In this document: piece after piece, positions 41,134-46,088 of the stretch
Position numbering within the stretch: position 1 is the stretch's first letter
Layout of the letters: each line of letters begins with the position of its first letter
NCBI RefSeq assembly: GCF_900107995.1
Contig: NZ_FNUM01000001.1
Coordinates: 259,695 to 323,694, forward strand
Length of the DNA: 64,000 nt
Reading direction: 5' to 3'
Source of the DNA: Alcanivorax sp. DSM 26293
GTDB taxonomy: Bacteria; Pseudomonadota; Gammaproteobacteria; Pseudomonadales; Alcanivoracaceae
Notes under the pieces: model-generated
What the model saw: the letters and a program-made list of their open reading frames with translations, nothing else
Database searches by the model: none
What the model was told of the DNA's origin: nothing
Position numbers and translations under genes: made by a program

Positions 41134-41686
<553 letters not shown>

Positions 41687-41709
<23 letters not shown>

Positions 41710-42097
41710 GATGCCCCTCGCAGTCACATTTCTTGCAGGCGCGAATATTGCCAATATGCGCAGTCACCAGACAGATTCCGACCAGAGTGGTGAGCAGGGG
41801 TTCCCACAGGGTGCCATGGAACGCCGATTCGAACACCGCAATCAGACACAACCCGATCAGAGCCATCAGACCGGGCAGCAACACCCAACGCCGACGGTGG
41901 TGACGATAGCCCACCACCATTGCCACTACACTGACCGGCACAATAATGACCAGCAGTGCCTGGTGAAACAGTTCACCCATGCCGCTAAACAGGGACAGTA
42001 AACCGATTGCAAACAGCCCGGCTACGCTGGCCACACAATGGATCATACACAAACCGGACAGGGCGATGGCCGCCTGGTCCAGACGTAAACGTGACAT
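41687..42097 (-). CDS. MerC-domain membrane protein
   Basis: A 136-residue protein starting MSRLRLDQAAIALSGLCMIH at the ATG at 42097. Four hydrophobic helices are visible, with the MerC-type pair SGLCMIHCVASV (Cys-x3-Cys, about 16-20) in the first. A Cys/His-rich cytoplasmic tail (ACKKCDCEGHHEE) ends the protein and could bind Zn. MerC proteins move Hg or other soft metals; small MerC-like proteins next to Zur-linked genes are thought to handle zinc. First gene of the transport operon; I found no Zur box directly upstream. Confidence 0.82.
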
Positions 42098-42458: not shown

Positions 42459-42917
42459 TTAACCCACGTTGCAGTTCGCACAACGGCCATGCACTTCCAG
42501 CAAGGGGTTCTGCTGGGTCACGAATCCCAGGCTCTTGATACTCTGCTGCAACTCGCTGATGGCCGCCCCCGCCATGGGGGTTTCCTGCACCGCACCGCAA
42601 TCATCACAGAGCAGGAACACGGTGCCCTGGTGACCGTGGTGGCAGGTGATGTGATCGCAGGCCAGGTACTGGTTGGTGGAGCTGAGCCGGTGGGCCAGCC
42701 CCTGCTGCACCAGAAACTCCAGCGCCCGGTAGATGGTGGGCGGCTGGGCGTTTTCCTGATATTGCGCCTTGAACTGGTCCAGCAACTGGTAGGCACTCTG
42801 CGGGCCAGATTGGGCCAGCAGCAACGTCATCACCTGACGCCGCTGGGGGGTCATGCGCACGCCCTGCTCGCGGCAATGCTGTTCGGCGCTGGCGAGAATG
42901 CGGTCGGTGCGGTTCAT
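42459..42917 (-). CDS. zur: Zinc uptake regulator Zur (Fur family)
   Basis: A 152-residue Fur-family repressor starting MNRTDRILASAEQHCREQGV at the ATG at 42917. The winged-helix domain (MTPQRRQVMTLLLAQSGPQS, then QPPTIYRALEFLVQQGLAHR) is followed by metal-binding residues CDHITCHHGHQGTVFLLCDD, with CDDC and a C-terminal CANC pair forming the structural Zn site. It is named Zur rather than Fur because it is last in an operon with a COG0523 GTPase and DUF1826 behind a Zur-box palindrome. It represses zinc-uptake genes when zinc is ample. Confidence 0.92.
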   Translation of the reverse strand: MNRTDRILASAEQHCREQGVRMTPQRRQVMTLLLAQSGPQSAYQLLDQFKAQYQENAQPPTIYRALEFLVQQGLAHRLSSTNQYLACDHITCHHGHQGTVFLLCDDCGAVQETPMAGAAISELQQSIKSLGFVTQQNPLLEVHGRCANCNVG

Positions 42918-42924
42918 GACAGTC

Positions 42925-43554
42925 CTATATATCCAGTGTGACCAGCAGGCGTTGCTGACCGGGAGACACGGGCGGAGACCGGTGGACCACACCCGAGCCC
43001 GGATTATCCCGCCAGGTGTCGCCTTTGAACAGGGCGACCTGCCCGGCCTGTAATTGCTGCACGCTGTCCGCGGCGTAGCGCCCTTCCTGGTCCACGCCCG
43101 GCACCAGCAGCCCGGCCGGCACAGAAGGTGCCGGCAACCACTGGCTACCCGGGCCGCCATAGGTGCACAACATGCGCACCGGGATACGGTCCACATGGAA
43201 GCGAGGGCACATGGGTTTCTCAAGGGCCGTGACGCGCAGGCCCACGCCGGTGGTACCGAACAAACAGGCCATCATCTCCGCCAGCAACGCCAGGTCCTCA
43301 CGCAATGGGGCGAAATCCTCGCCGGGCAACGACCGGGCAATGGAACCGGTCAGGTCGCTGGCATCCAGCCAGCTTTTTATGGCCATTTTCCTGCTGCAGG
43401 CCAGCGTTACCCGCTGCGGGTCAATCGGGCTGCGCCGGTCCCAGACGGCCACCTGTACCGGGTCCATCATCACATCGGTCAGAACGGCGGCATCATCACG
43501 CATGCTCAAACCCGGGGCCGCATAGGCCGCAGGCAATGTCCTTGCCTCGATCAT
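42925..43554 (-). CDS. DUF1826 family protein
   Basis: A 209-residue soluble protein starting MIEARTLPAAYAAPGLSMRD. The ATG at 43554 overlaps the COG0523 stop codon (ATGA) and the gene ends 7 bp before zur, so all three are one transcript. The pattern CPRFHVDRIPVRMLCTYGGP with ALFKGD and VVHRSPPV resembles a cupin-like / 2-oxoglutarate-oxygenase-like core with His and Asp that could bind metal. DUF1826 genes are recurrent Zur-regulon members; the function is unknown. Confidence 0.82.
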   Translation of the reverse strand: MIEARTLPAAYAAPGLSMRDDAAVLTDVMMDPVQVAVWDRRSPIDPQRVTLACSRKMAIKSWLDASDLTGSIARSLPGEDFAPLREDLALLAEMMACLFGTTGVGLRVTALEKPMCPRFHVDRIPVRMLCTYGGPGSQWLPAPSVPAGLLVPGVDQEGRYAADSVQQLQAGQVALFKGDTWRDNPGSGVVHRSPPVSPGQQRLLVTLDI

Positions 43555-44774
43555 CCTGCCATCTCCCACTGCGGGAACGGGTCCTCCAGTTGCTGCCAGA
43601 GTTCCTTGCCCGCGAGCATTTCTTCTTCCGTGAGCAGGCAGGCATCCAGGGCCTGCCGGGTGGCCTCCGGCTGCAGATTGTGGCCGATGAAAACCAGCTC
43701 CTGGCGCATGTCGCCAAAGGGCTCCTGCCATTTCTCCATGATCATGGCGCGATAGTCCGGGTCTGTGGGCCAGTGCTTGTCCGGCACGGTTTTCCAGAAC
43801 AGGCCGGCAGGGCCGTGGTGGGCGATCTCACCGGCCTGGCTCCAGTTGCCGGCAAATTGCGGGCGGCTGGCCAACCAGAAAAACCCCTTGGAGCGCAACA
43901 GCGTTCCGTAGGGCCAGGGCTGTTGCAGAAAGTCCCAGAACCGCTGCGGATGGAAAGGACGGCGGGCCTCATAACTGAAGCTGCTGATACCGTATTCCTC
44001 GGTTTCCGGCAGGTGCTCACCGCGCATTTCCTTGAGCCAGCCCGGCGCCTGCTGGGCTTTTTCAAAATCGAACAGGCCGGTGTCCAGCACCGCATCCAGC
44101 GGCACCATGCCGTGCCTGATGGGTATGATGCGAGCCTCCGGATTGAGCAACCGCAGGGTGGCGGTGAGGGTTTCCAGATCGGCCTCACTGACCAGGTCGG
44201 TTTTGCTGATAAGCAGCACATCGCAGAATTCCACCTGCTCCACCAGCAGATCCACCACATTGCGCTGGTCGTCCTCGCCCAGGCTTTCGCCCTCTTCCTG
44301 AAGGGTGCGGGCACTGCGGTAATCACGCAGAAAATTCACCGCATCTACCACGGTGACCATGGTATCCAGCCGAGCCACCGTAGACAGGCTGTCGCCGTTT
44401 TCGTCTTCGAAGGTAAAGGTTTCCGCCACCGGTAGCGGTTCGGAAATACCGGTGGATTCAATCACCAGATAATCAAAACGCCCCTCCCGGGACAGCCGGG
44501 TCACTTCCAGCAACAGGTCTTCGCGAAGCGTGCAACAGATGCAGCCGTTGCTCATTTCCACCAGCTTTTCTTCGGCGCGATTCAGGGACACCTCATTACT
44601 GACCAGCGCCGCGTCGATATTGATCTCGCTCATGTCATTGACAATCACGGCCACACGGAGCCCGGCACGGTTATTGAGGATATGGTTAAGAACGGTGGTT
44701 TTCCCGGCGCCGAGAAAGCCCGACAGTACAGTGACGGGTAGCTGGCGCGCGGGGGCAGCTGGCTGGGTAGTCAT
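43551..44774 (-). CDS. COG0523 (CobW/ZigA-like) GTPase, zinc metallochaperone
   Basis: A 407-residue G3E GTPase. Walker A LSGFLGAGKTTVLNHIL, the metal-binding CxCC motif SNGCICCTLREDL (about residue 77) and the guanine motif SKTD are present, with a C-terminal CobW_C domain (about 270-380). It probably delivers zinc to client enzymes under zinc limitation, as the Zur-regulated ZigA/ZNG1 group does. It heads the operon with DUF1826 and zur and follows the dksA-like stub and the Zur box. Confidence 0.92.
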   Translation of the reverse strand: MTTQPAAPARQLPVTVLSGFLGAGKTTVLNHILNNRAGLRVAVIVNDMSEINIDAALVSNEVSLNRAEEKLVEMSNGCICCTLREDLLLEVTRLSREGRFDYLVIESTGISEPLPVAETFTFEDENGDSLSTVARLDTMVTVVDAVNFLRDYRSARTLQEEGESLGEDDQRNVVDLLVEQVEFCDVLLISKTDLVSEADLETLTATLRLLNPEARIIPIRHGMVPLDAVLDTGLFDFEKAQQAPGWLKEMRGEHLPETEEYGISSFSYEARRPFHPQRFWDFLQQPWPYGTLLRSKGFFWLASRPQFAGNWSQAGEIAHHGPAGLFWKTVPDKHWPTDPDYRAMIMEKWQEPFGDMRQELVFIGHNLQPEATRQALDACLLTEEEMLAGKELWQQLEDPFPQWEMAG

Positions 44775-44828
44775 GGAATTATCCGGTTCGTGAATGGGCG
44801 TAGTGTCTTTCGTTGGCTTCCAGCCGGG

Positions 44829-44909
44829 TTAAGCAGGCTGCTGGGTTGCATTCATGTAATCCGCCTCGGGCATGGCCAGCAGGGCCTTTTCACTGAGCAC
44901 GTCCGACAT
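44829..44909 (-). pseudogene. Truncated dksA2-like gene (26 codons)
   Basis: A 26-codon frame MSDVLSEKALLAMPEADYMN plus ATQQPA, too short for normal gene calling, starts at the ATG at 44909 behind GGGAGG. The text LSEKALLAMPEADYMNATQQ closely resembles the N terminus of DksA-type proteins (xLLAxPExxYMNxxQ). A full DksA2 is about 130 residues, so some 100 codons are missing before the GTPase gene 54 bp on. In Pseudomonas, Zur-regulated dksA2 precedes the COG0523 gene, exactly this position. It could still be translated as a leader peptide. Confidence 0.6.
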
Positions 44910-44926
44910 GATGGCCTCCCTTTTAA

Positions 44927-44944
44927 GTTATGTTATAACATAAC
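44927..44944. promoter_or_regulatory. Zur box
   Basis: The perfect 18-bp palindrome GTTATGTTATAACATAAC matches the gammaproteobacterial Zur consensus core (ATGTTATAnnATAACAT type). It lies 18 bp ahead of the dksA-like stub and about 150 bp ahead of the COG0523 start, so it should repress the operon in zinc-replete cells. Confidence 0.88.
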
Positions 44945-45018
44945 AATTGACAGGTGCAATCACAGCAACGGAAATCACGCCCATGGCACTCCCGATTCCT
45001 GCCAGCTATGGCGAATGA

Positions 45019-45240
45019 CGACGTTGCATTACTGAGGTTTGCGGACTGGCTCTGACAGAAGCCTTCATACACCAGCGCCTGGCGGCGCTGGAAAATCCCG
45101 ATGACTACATGACCCGGAAATTTATCGCTCTGTACGGAGAAGCCCCACAGGCGACAGACCCGGACCTGGTTCGCCCGGGCTCTGAACGAGCTTACTGGCT
45201 CCCCTGCTCTGGACCGGCGTTGAAAGGCTCCACCTTGTAG
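45019..45240 (+). other. Open frame without start codon, possible gene remnant
   Basis: A plus-strand frame is open for 73 codons and reads like protein (LTEAFIHQRLAALENPDDYM, then TRKFIALYGEAPQA) up to a TAG at 45238. It has no plausible start codon or ribosome-binding site, and its end overlaps the 3' end of the TraB/GumN gene. I do not recognise the family. It may be a fragment left by the same deletion that removed dksA2. Confidence 0.35.
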
Positions 45241-46088
45241 CCCGCATCCTCGAACATCACCAGCAGGCTGTCCGGCCCGCCTAGATGCAGTGCGCCTACC
45301 AGCACCAGGCTCGGCGTGCCTTCCGTCATGGCCTGCTGGATTTTCGGATACCACTGGCGATTACGATCGATGATCAGATTCCGGTAGATACCGGGATATT
45401 CGCTCTCCATTTCATCCGCACCCAGCAGAATATAAAGGCCGTCCAGATCGCCTTCCCGCCAGGCATTAACCGCCTGTTCCATCATACCATCCATGTGCTC
45501 GATACCTTCCAGGGAAGACTCGATCAGGGCGTCGCCACTCTCCTCATTCAGTTGCGCCATGAATGACAGCAGGGTATCGCTGGATTCCAGAAAACCCATT
45601 GACTTGCCCTGCTCGCTCGCCCGGGTGAAATAGTATTCATCAACACCCCGGCCAAAGCCCTGACGCCCCAACTCATGGACCGTCATGGCCATGGCGACCA
45701 TGGCCGGCTTGAAGCTCTGGTAAGTGGCCAGCGGAAAGTTGGCCTGGGCGGCATAGTCCTGCAATTGCCCCCAGACAGGATCGGATAGATCCTTTTTCAG
45801 GGTGCGGCCATCTGGCTGCATCATCATCTGCGTCAGTCGCCGAGAAAAGGCCGGGGTGGCAGACTCAGCCAGATTCGATTCCAGATACAGCTGGTCCGCG
45901 TCCTTGTAGGCCTGCTGCATGGCCGTTGGTGGCGGCAGGTCCGCCGGGCGCAGAAAATGCACAGTGGCCCCCAGCCAGATACGCTTGCCCTCTTTGCTGA
46001 CTTCCCAGACCGGATCCGCCTGGAGGCCGGGTGCCAGAAACAGCAACACCGCCAGTACAGCAACCCGCCGAATAATCCATAACCCCAT
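45192..46088 (-). CDS. TraB/GumN family exported protein
   Basis: A 298-residue protein with an N-terminal signal peptide (RRVAVLAVLLFLAPGLQA, cleavage near ADP). The TraB/GumN motifs are KRIWLGATVHFLRPADLP near the N terminus (GxxH) and SLVLVGALHLGGPDSLLVMF near the C terminus (second GxxH). The family resembles Tiki-like metalloproteases, so it may be a periplasmic peptidase; substrate unknown. Three consecutive ATGs exist; the one at 46088 is best spaced from the ACGGGG site. Confidence 0.85.
   Translation of the reverse strand: MGLWIIRRVAVLAVLLFLAPGLQADPVWEVSKEGKRIWLGATVHFLRPADLPPPTAMQQAYKDADQLYLESNLAESATPAFSRRLTQMMMQPDGRTLKKDLSDPVWGQLQDYAAQANFPLATYQSFKPAMVAMAMTVHELGRQGFGRGVDEYYFTRASEQGKSMGFLESSDTLLSFMAQLNEESGDALIESSLEGIEHMDGMMEQAVNAWREGDLDGLYILLGADEMESEYPGIYRNLIIDRNRQWYPKIQQAMTEGTPSLVLVGALHLGGPDSLLVMFEDAGYKVEPFNAGPEQGSQ

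Follow-up and report, generated by a model that had tools for sequence, protein, structure and literature searches.

The question raised by this locus is why a Zur-box-type operator in Alcanivorax sp. DSM 26293 is followed by a frame of only 26 codons before the gene for a zinc metallochaperone GTPase begins. The locus lies in the window, that is, the whole stretch of 64,000 nucleotides that was analysed. On the minus strand, the operator, a strong ribosome-binding site, the short frame (the stub), a spacer, zigA, a DUF1826 gene and a zur-like gene follow one another (Table 1). The ATG of the stub is at 44909, and 54 nt separate its stop codon from the zigA ATG at 44774. An earlier reading of the letters alone (the sequence-only reading) had described the same palindrome, ribosome-binding site, 26-codon frame (44909-44829) and COG0523 GTPase 54 nt further on. 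It took the stub for a truncated dksA2, the gene of a zinc-independent DksA paralog, with the body of the gene deleted and the operator, ribosome-binding site and operon kept. Our comparison bears this out, both edges of the deletion being seen in the alignment. We are highly confident that the feature is a relic of dksA2, which has lost a net 292 bp from its interior. The energies of the ribosome-binding sites were calculated with an assumed 16S anti-Shine-Dalgarno sequence.

Table 1. Features of the dksA2-zigA locus, in window coordinates
Feature	Position	Strand	Basis
Zur-box-type operator, 18-bp perfect palindrome GTTATGTTATAACATAAC	44927..44944	.	sequence read directly; 18/18 self-complementary
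dksA2 ribosome-binding site AAGGGAGGC	44914..44922	-	-11.3 kcal/mol, spacing 4
dksA2 5' relic, 26-codon frame MSDVLSEKALLAMPEADYMNATQQPA	44829..44909	-	residues 1-24 match intact DksA2
dksA2 3' relic, residues 125-140 of intact DksA2, frame other than that of the stub	44782..44829	-	
Second 26-codon frame across the deletion junction, TGA overlaps zigA ATG (ATGA)	44771..44851	-	
zigA, COG0523 zinc metallochaperone GTPase, 407 aa	43551..44774	-	NF038288 (equivalog), 702.3 bits, cut-off 600
DUF1826 protein	42925..43554	-	PF08856, 173 bits
Fur-family regulator, best match Zur	42459..42917	-	PF01475 over cut-off; NF008646 (Zur) 126 bits, below cut-off 167

In the tblastn comparison, the stub matched intact DksA2 with 87.5% identity across residues 1-24 (44838-44909), and it was 85% identical to the N-terminus of DksA2 from an intact relative, G016. 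The 3' end of dksA2, which the sequence-only reading had overlooked, is also present, within the apparent spacer and in another frame (93.8% identity across 16 residues, 125-140). When the whole genome was searched with the G016 DksA2, two adjacent matches came up, to residues 1-25 (E = 2e-5) and to residues 122-140 (E 0.008). The stub scored 23.2 bits against a DksA2 profile, and the best of 12,092 shuffled or reverse-strand control fragments scored 6.1 bits. Scanned with Pfam and NCBIfam, the 26-mer matched no family: the similarity appears only with a full-length DksA2 query or a custom DksA2 profile, and it was with the latter that the profile likeness to DksA, a test set beforehand, was found. 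The N-terminal segment (residues 1-24) is thus present, the coiled coil and the globular 2-Cys region (residues ~25-124) are absent from the locus, and the DNA for the C-terminal helix is kept out of frame with the stub. Because residues ~25-124 are absent, the locus is, as judged from these segments, a dksA2 relic and not a member of the DksA2 family. A chance open reading frame with an accidental likeness to DksA, to which the shortness of the frame and the silence of Pfam and NCBIfam might point, has a negligible probability, since the two ends of dksA2 lie there in the right order, the slot is filled by intact orthologs in relatives and the stub outscored every control fragment; the comparison with G016 refutes it.

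The operator was searched for in seven of the ten zigA-bearing Alcanivorax genomes (G000, which is the window genome, G004, G012, G016, G003, G014 and G008). With up to 2 mismatches allowed, the palindrome GTTATGTTATAACATAAC occurred at a single place in each of the seven, always upstream of dksA2/zigA; it was perfect in six and had 2 mismatches in G008. The reversed control pattern did not occur in these genomes. Within 700 bp upstream of zigA, a match with at most 3 mismatches was found in 38 of 80 wider genome-contig loci and in 15 of 19 family loci, against none of 400 shuffles of the 80 wider loci. The stretch 44927-44944 has the features of a Zur operator, namely a palindromic box at the promoter of zinc genes and a zur-like gene (42459-42917) in the genome, and it is regarded as a putative Zur site. 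No sigma-70-like promoter passed in the scan of 44700-45250.

It should be mentioned that the row of genes with zur and zigA also encodes a zinc uptake protein of the ZrgA family, which has a long His-Asp repeat (41134-41754; PF10986, 132 bits; the NCBIfam ZrgA model gave 86 bits, less than its cut-off of 185). In G004 (L122; 10897-15355 and 855-4967), the module of ZrgA, ABC ATPase and FtsX-like permease next to zur occurs twice in tandem. The ATPase and permease matches are shortened in the first copy, and the pair of AGCS transporter and phosphatase is also partly repeated.

Related genomes were the check that the sequence-only reading had pointed to. Of 17 genomes of the genus, 10 carry a zigA gene (E <= 1e-80), among them the window genome. 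In seven of these ten, the slot upstream of zigA holds an intact dksA2, with two cysteines where the zinc-finger DksA has four; in the other three it holds the relic. A condition under which the sequence-only reading would have been refuted, namely that relatives never carry an intact dksA2 here, is clearly not borne out. The intact loci, such as those of G016 (L124) and of Alcanivorax sp. DG881 (G008, L042), have the same operator and the same order of dksA2, zigA, DUF1826 and zur as the window. They differ in that dksA2 has 137-140 codons and stops 3-4 nt before zigA (13 nt in G003). In G000, G004 and G012, DksA2 residues ~1-24 and ~125-140 are kept around the same net 292-bp deletion. The distance from the dksA2 start to the zigA start is 427 bp in G016, 135 bp in G000 and G004, and 134 bp in G012. 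In the nucleotide alignment the junction is common to the three genomes, with ~6 nt of uncertain origin; the three are therefore counted as one deletion allele, not as three events. An assembly artefact that dropped the middle of dksA2 could be thought of for an assembly of 22 contigs from one strain. This is very improbable, because the same junction is found in two other assemblies, of which G004 is a single contig, each with later changes of its own.

The relic does not seem to be compensated by a copy elsewhere in the genome, which the sequence-only reading had also proposed to look for. At E <= 1e-22, the G016 DksA2 matches nothing in G000, and besides the relic this genome has only the four-cysteine (zinc-finger) DksA. 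This supports loss of the zinc-free DksA backup at the genome level. The seven genomes of the genus that have no zigA have no dksA2 either, their best matches being canonical DksA. The gene for ribosomal protein L31, taken as a proxy for zinc-sparing paralogs, is single in each of seven genomes, with or without dksA2, and hence is uninformative.

Two further observations were made on DksA-like proteins of the genus. Four of the 17 genomes (G004, G016, G003 and G014), G000 and G012 not being among them, have a further, third match of DksA/TraR type (E 3e-9 to 7e-6); the sole one that was read, from G004 (L036), has four cysteines. In addition, canonical DksA carries an N-terminal extension of 209-300 residues, rich in Lys, Ala and Pro (55-69%) and in one frame, in all 17 genomes (L001/L023 = G000:C20; L019-L035). 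This extension presumably resembles the tails of AlgP and histone H1-like proteins. Among the best 10 of 17 literature matches, no title was plainly on DksA with AlgP or with an N-terminal extension.

From the common junction it is clear that the deletion arose once. It may later have spread either by vertical descent or through interspecies recombination. The noncoding spacer upstream of the operator in G000 is 92-98% identical to those of G004 and G012 versus 82-88% to that of G016. In the 40 nt from the operator to the start codon, G000 is no nearer to its sisters than to G016, and in the 3' relic it is no nearer to G004 than to G016. Identity of the window to four relatives in 500-bp bins, some parts being covered by fewer than all four, ranges from ~73 to 100%, and the nearest relative shifts along the window. 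At 52.5-60 kb the identity is 93-99% to G004 and G012 and 88-93% to G016; at 30-36 kb a block of 95-99% identity to G012 stands amid a lower background. These blocks look like recent interspecies recombination, or like a patchwork in which imported segments interrupt the clonal frame. The trees of zigA, zur, DUF1826, gumN, ABC, ftsX and AGCS conflict, several of them with low support. As judged from the alignments and trees, the region is a recombination mosaic.

In the three genomes with the relic, zigA is under strong purifying selection (dN 0.011-0.016, dS 0.24-0.53, dN/dS 0.03-0.05). Between G000 and G004, codons 1-25 of the stub show just 3 substitutions in 75 nt, so that some constraint may act on them. 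Intact dksA2, compared in five of the seven genomes that have it, gave a higher dN/dS than zigA in all seven computable pairs of ten (0.05-0.25 versus 0.02-0.08). This difference is only a hint that dksA2 is less constrained, because dS of dksA2 was saturated in three pairs and near or above 1 in several others.

How zigA is translated bears on the last claim of the sequence-only reading, which was that the stub may act as a leader peptide coupled to the GTPase. According to the available part of PMC10666635, termination-reinitiation operates when the stop lies about -8 to +10 nt from the downstream start, and an overlap of -4 is among the commonest coupled geometries. The dksA2 stop falls within this range in six of the seven intact relatives (all except G003). 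The zigA ribosome-binding site itself is weak in all ten Alcanivorax (-3.1 to -4.1 kcal/mol; -3.1 to -3.3 in the deleted trio), versus a median of -7.4 in 18 other family loci without an adjacent dksA2 (p = 4e-4). In this comparison L089, which has no usable start, and the duplicate L042 were dropped, and L066 and L136 were listed apart. In the intact relatives, translation of dksA2 and zigA looks coupled from this arrangement. A general rule that a weak zigA site marks coupling to dksA2 was valid within the family and failed outside it: in 66 outside loci without an adjacent dksA2 the median was -3.75 kcal/mol, and therefore a weak site alone proves no coupling.

In the window, the stub stop lies 54 nt upstream of zigA, outside the coupling range. 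A working leader peptide, whose translation would control or couple that of zigA, might be suggested by the persistence, in each of the three genomes with the deletion, of the stub ATG and its ribosome-binding site (-11.3 kcal/mol in G000, -10.3 in G004 and -6.5 in G012) and by the weak zigA sites of the trio. The frame itself is not conserved. It ends after 26 codons in G000; in G004 it reads on through zigA for 452 codons; and in G012, because of a frameshift, it closes after 9 codons at a TGATG, the ATG of which opens a 442-codon frame that leads into zigA. RNA folding at the zigA start was no stabler than in shuffles in G000, G004 and G012 (z 0.26, -0.49 and -0.86; -1.68 in intact G016), and no consistent sequestration of this start was found. 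Moreover, of three E. coli gene pairs described in the same source, two already lost 80-90% of their reinitiation at a gap of 38 nt and one lost it entirely (PMC10666635). This argument from the gap is strong but not final, because earlier studies of phage genes and synthetic operons, cited in the available part of PMC10666635, reported scanning over longer ranges. With the peptide unconserved in the sisters and the gap beyond the measured range, the leader-peptide proposal is unsupported in the form in which it was made, and we regard it as quite unlikely.

Another possibility is that the deletion opened new routes for ribosomes into zigA. The second frame of Table 1, a candidate for translation, falls within the coupling range through its 4-nt overlap, which is the favoured -4 geometry (PMC10666635, in the part available), and has a Shine-Dalgarno energy of -7.3 kcal/mol in G000. 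Its upstream ATG, at -77, is present with an open frame in all three deleted genomes and in none of the seven intact ones. The ATGA at the zigA start occurs in all ten genomes; therefore only the upstream ATG and the openness of the frame are new after the deletion, and 26 open codons easily arise by chance. In G000 and G004 the dksA2 ATG also shares the zigA frame (135 nt), as does the stop/restart TGATG in G012, and in-frame N-terminal extensions of ZigA might thus be made in the two sisters. A stop intervenes in G000, which has no in-frame read-through, and in G012 the site before the restart ATG is weak (-3.2). We consider such new routes unlikely. The more specific proposal that the deletion rewired zigA translation, so that the ribosome-loading region of dksA2 would feed zigA through the 44851-44771 frame or, in the sisters, through a DksA2-derived extension of ZigA, seems rather unlikely. 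If it were true, a relic of a regulator would have turned into a translation launch pad for a metallochaperone.

For the remnant survey, the sequence preceding zigA was taken, to a length of at most 700 bp, from 109 loci (10 from the genus, 80 wider genome-contig and 19 family loci), 108 of them distinct since L042 repeats L009. The profile was built from the 19 intact DksA2 (18 distinct) that adjoin zigA in the surveyed loci, and the listing omits the matches of more than 40 bits that these 19 loci gave. Remnants above the control maximum of 6.1 bits were counted in five loci: G000, G004, G012, L066 and L136. A weak match in L082 (7.7 bits versus the control maximum of 6.1) was left uncounted. 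In L066 (Modicisalibacter xianhensis, 2765-2980), the operator and both ends of dksA2 are kept upstream of zigA and the middle is gone, as in the window. The breakpoints, however, are other ones: ~36 N-terminal and ~28 C-terminal residues form a frame of 71 codons that is still open, and its stop overlaps the zigA start (TGATG). L136, from another genus of the family (G022), has a C-terminal stretch of dksA2 alone, directly after the operator. In a search restricted to four loci, this stretch was 59% identical over 17 residues to the DksA2 proteins of two members of the family (E 1e-5). Because the breakpoints differ, these loci represent at least three separate deletions of dksA2 before zigA; the loss is recurrent. 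In Grimontia celer (L052) and Photobacterium rosenbergii (L087), a dksA2-like gene lies after zigA, not before it.

The following picture would account for the relic. When zinc is low, Zur would leave the operator and the mRNA would be made. Its leader would be the dksA2 relic and its useful product ZigA, followed by the DUF1826 protein and Zur; the stub peptide itself is probably functionless. Under zinc shortage the cell, lacking a zinc-free substitute, would have to rely on the zinc-finger DksA. In the locus as it was before the deletion, ribosomes leaving dksA2 probably reached zigA by termination-reinitiation, because the dksA2 stop was 3-4 nt upstream and the zigA site is weak, although weak zigA sites are also common where no dksA2 adjoins, as in the 66 outside loci. 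After the deletion, zigA probably starts from its own weak site, perhaps aided by ribosomes that start inside the relic.

The operon of PA5536 and PA5535 in P. aeruginosa presumably begins with dksA2, as judged from the gene numbers. In that species dksA2 is described as part of an operon with a cobW-like gene and its promoter as bound by Zur (PMC8531726, in the part available), so that dksA2 shares a Zur-controlled operon with a COG0523 gene as in the window. Unlike it, the window dksA2 lacks residues ~25-124 and cannot make DksA2, a protein that holds no zinc and can replace DksA1 according to the available part of PMC9213440. DksA paralogs without the four-cysteine motif after putative Zur sites were described in 2009, in the available part of PMC2770081, where Alcanivorax borkumensis is among the genomes listed. 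Among the matches listed from the open-licence literature (topics: dksA2/Zur, COG0523, Alcanivorax DksA, coupling and pseudogene), no title concerned the decay of dksA2.

The window locus is a case of genuine and recurrent gene erosion, ordinary but well documented, and not a new system. Its value is that both edges are visible: a zinc-sparing paralog was lost from a Zur operon, with the operator and the chaperone staying, at least three times and with different breakpoints. The genomes with dksA2 (G016) and without it (G000, G004 and G012) offer a natural comparison for asking whether zinc-free DksA matters to these bacteria. They also allow one to ask in what way a gene whose own ribosome-binding site is weak persists once the gene upstream of it has been lost.
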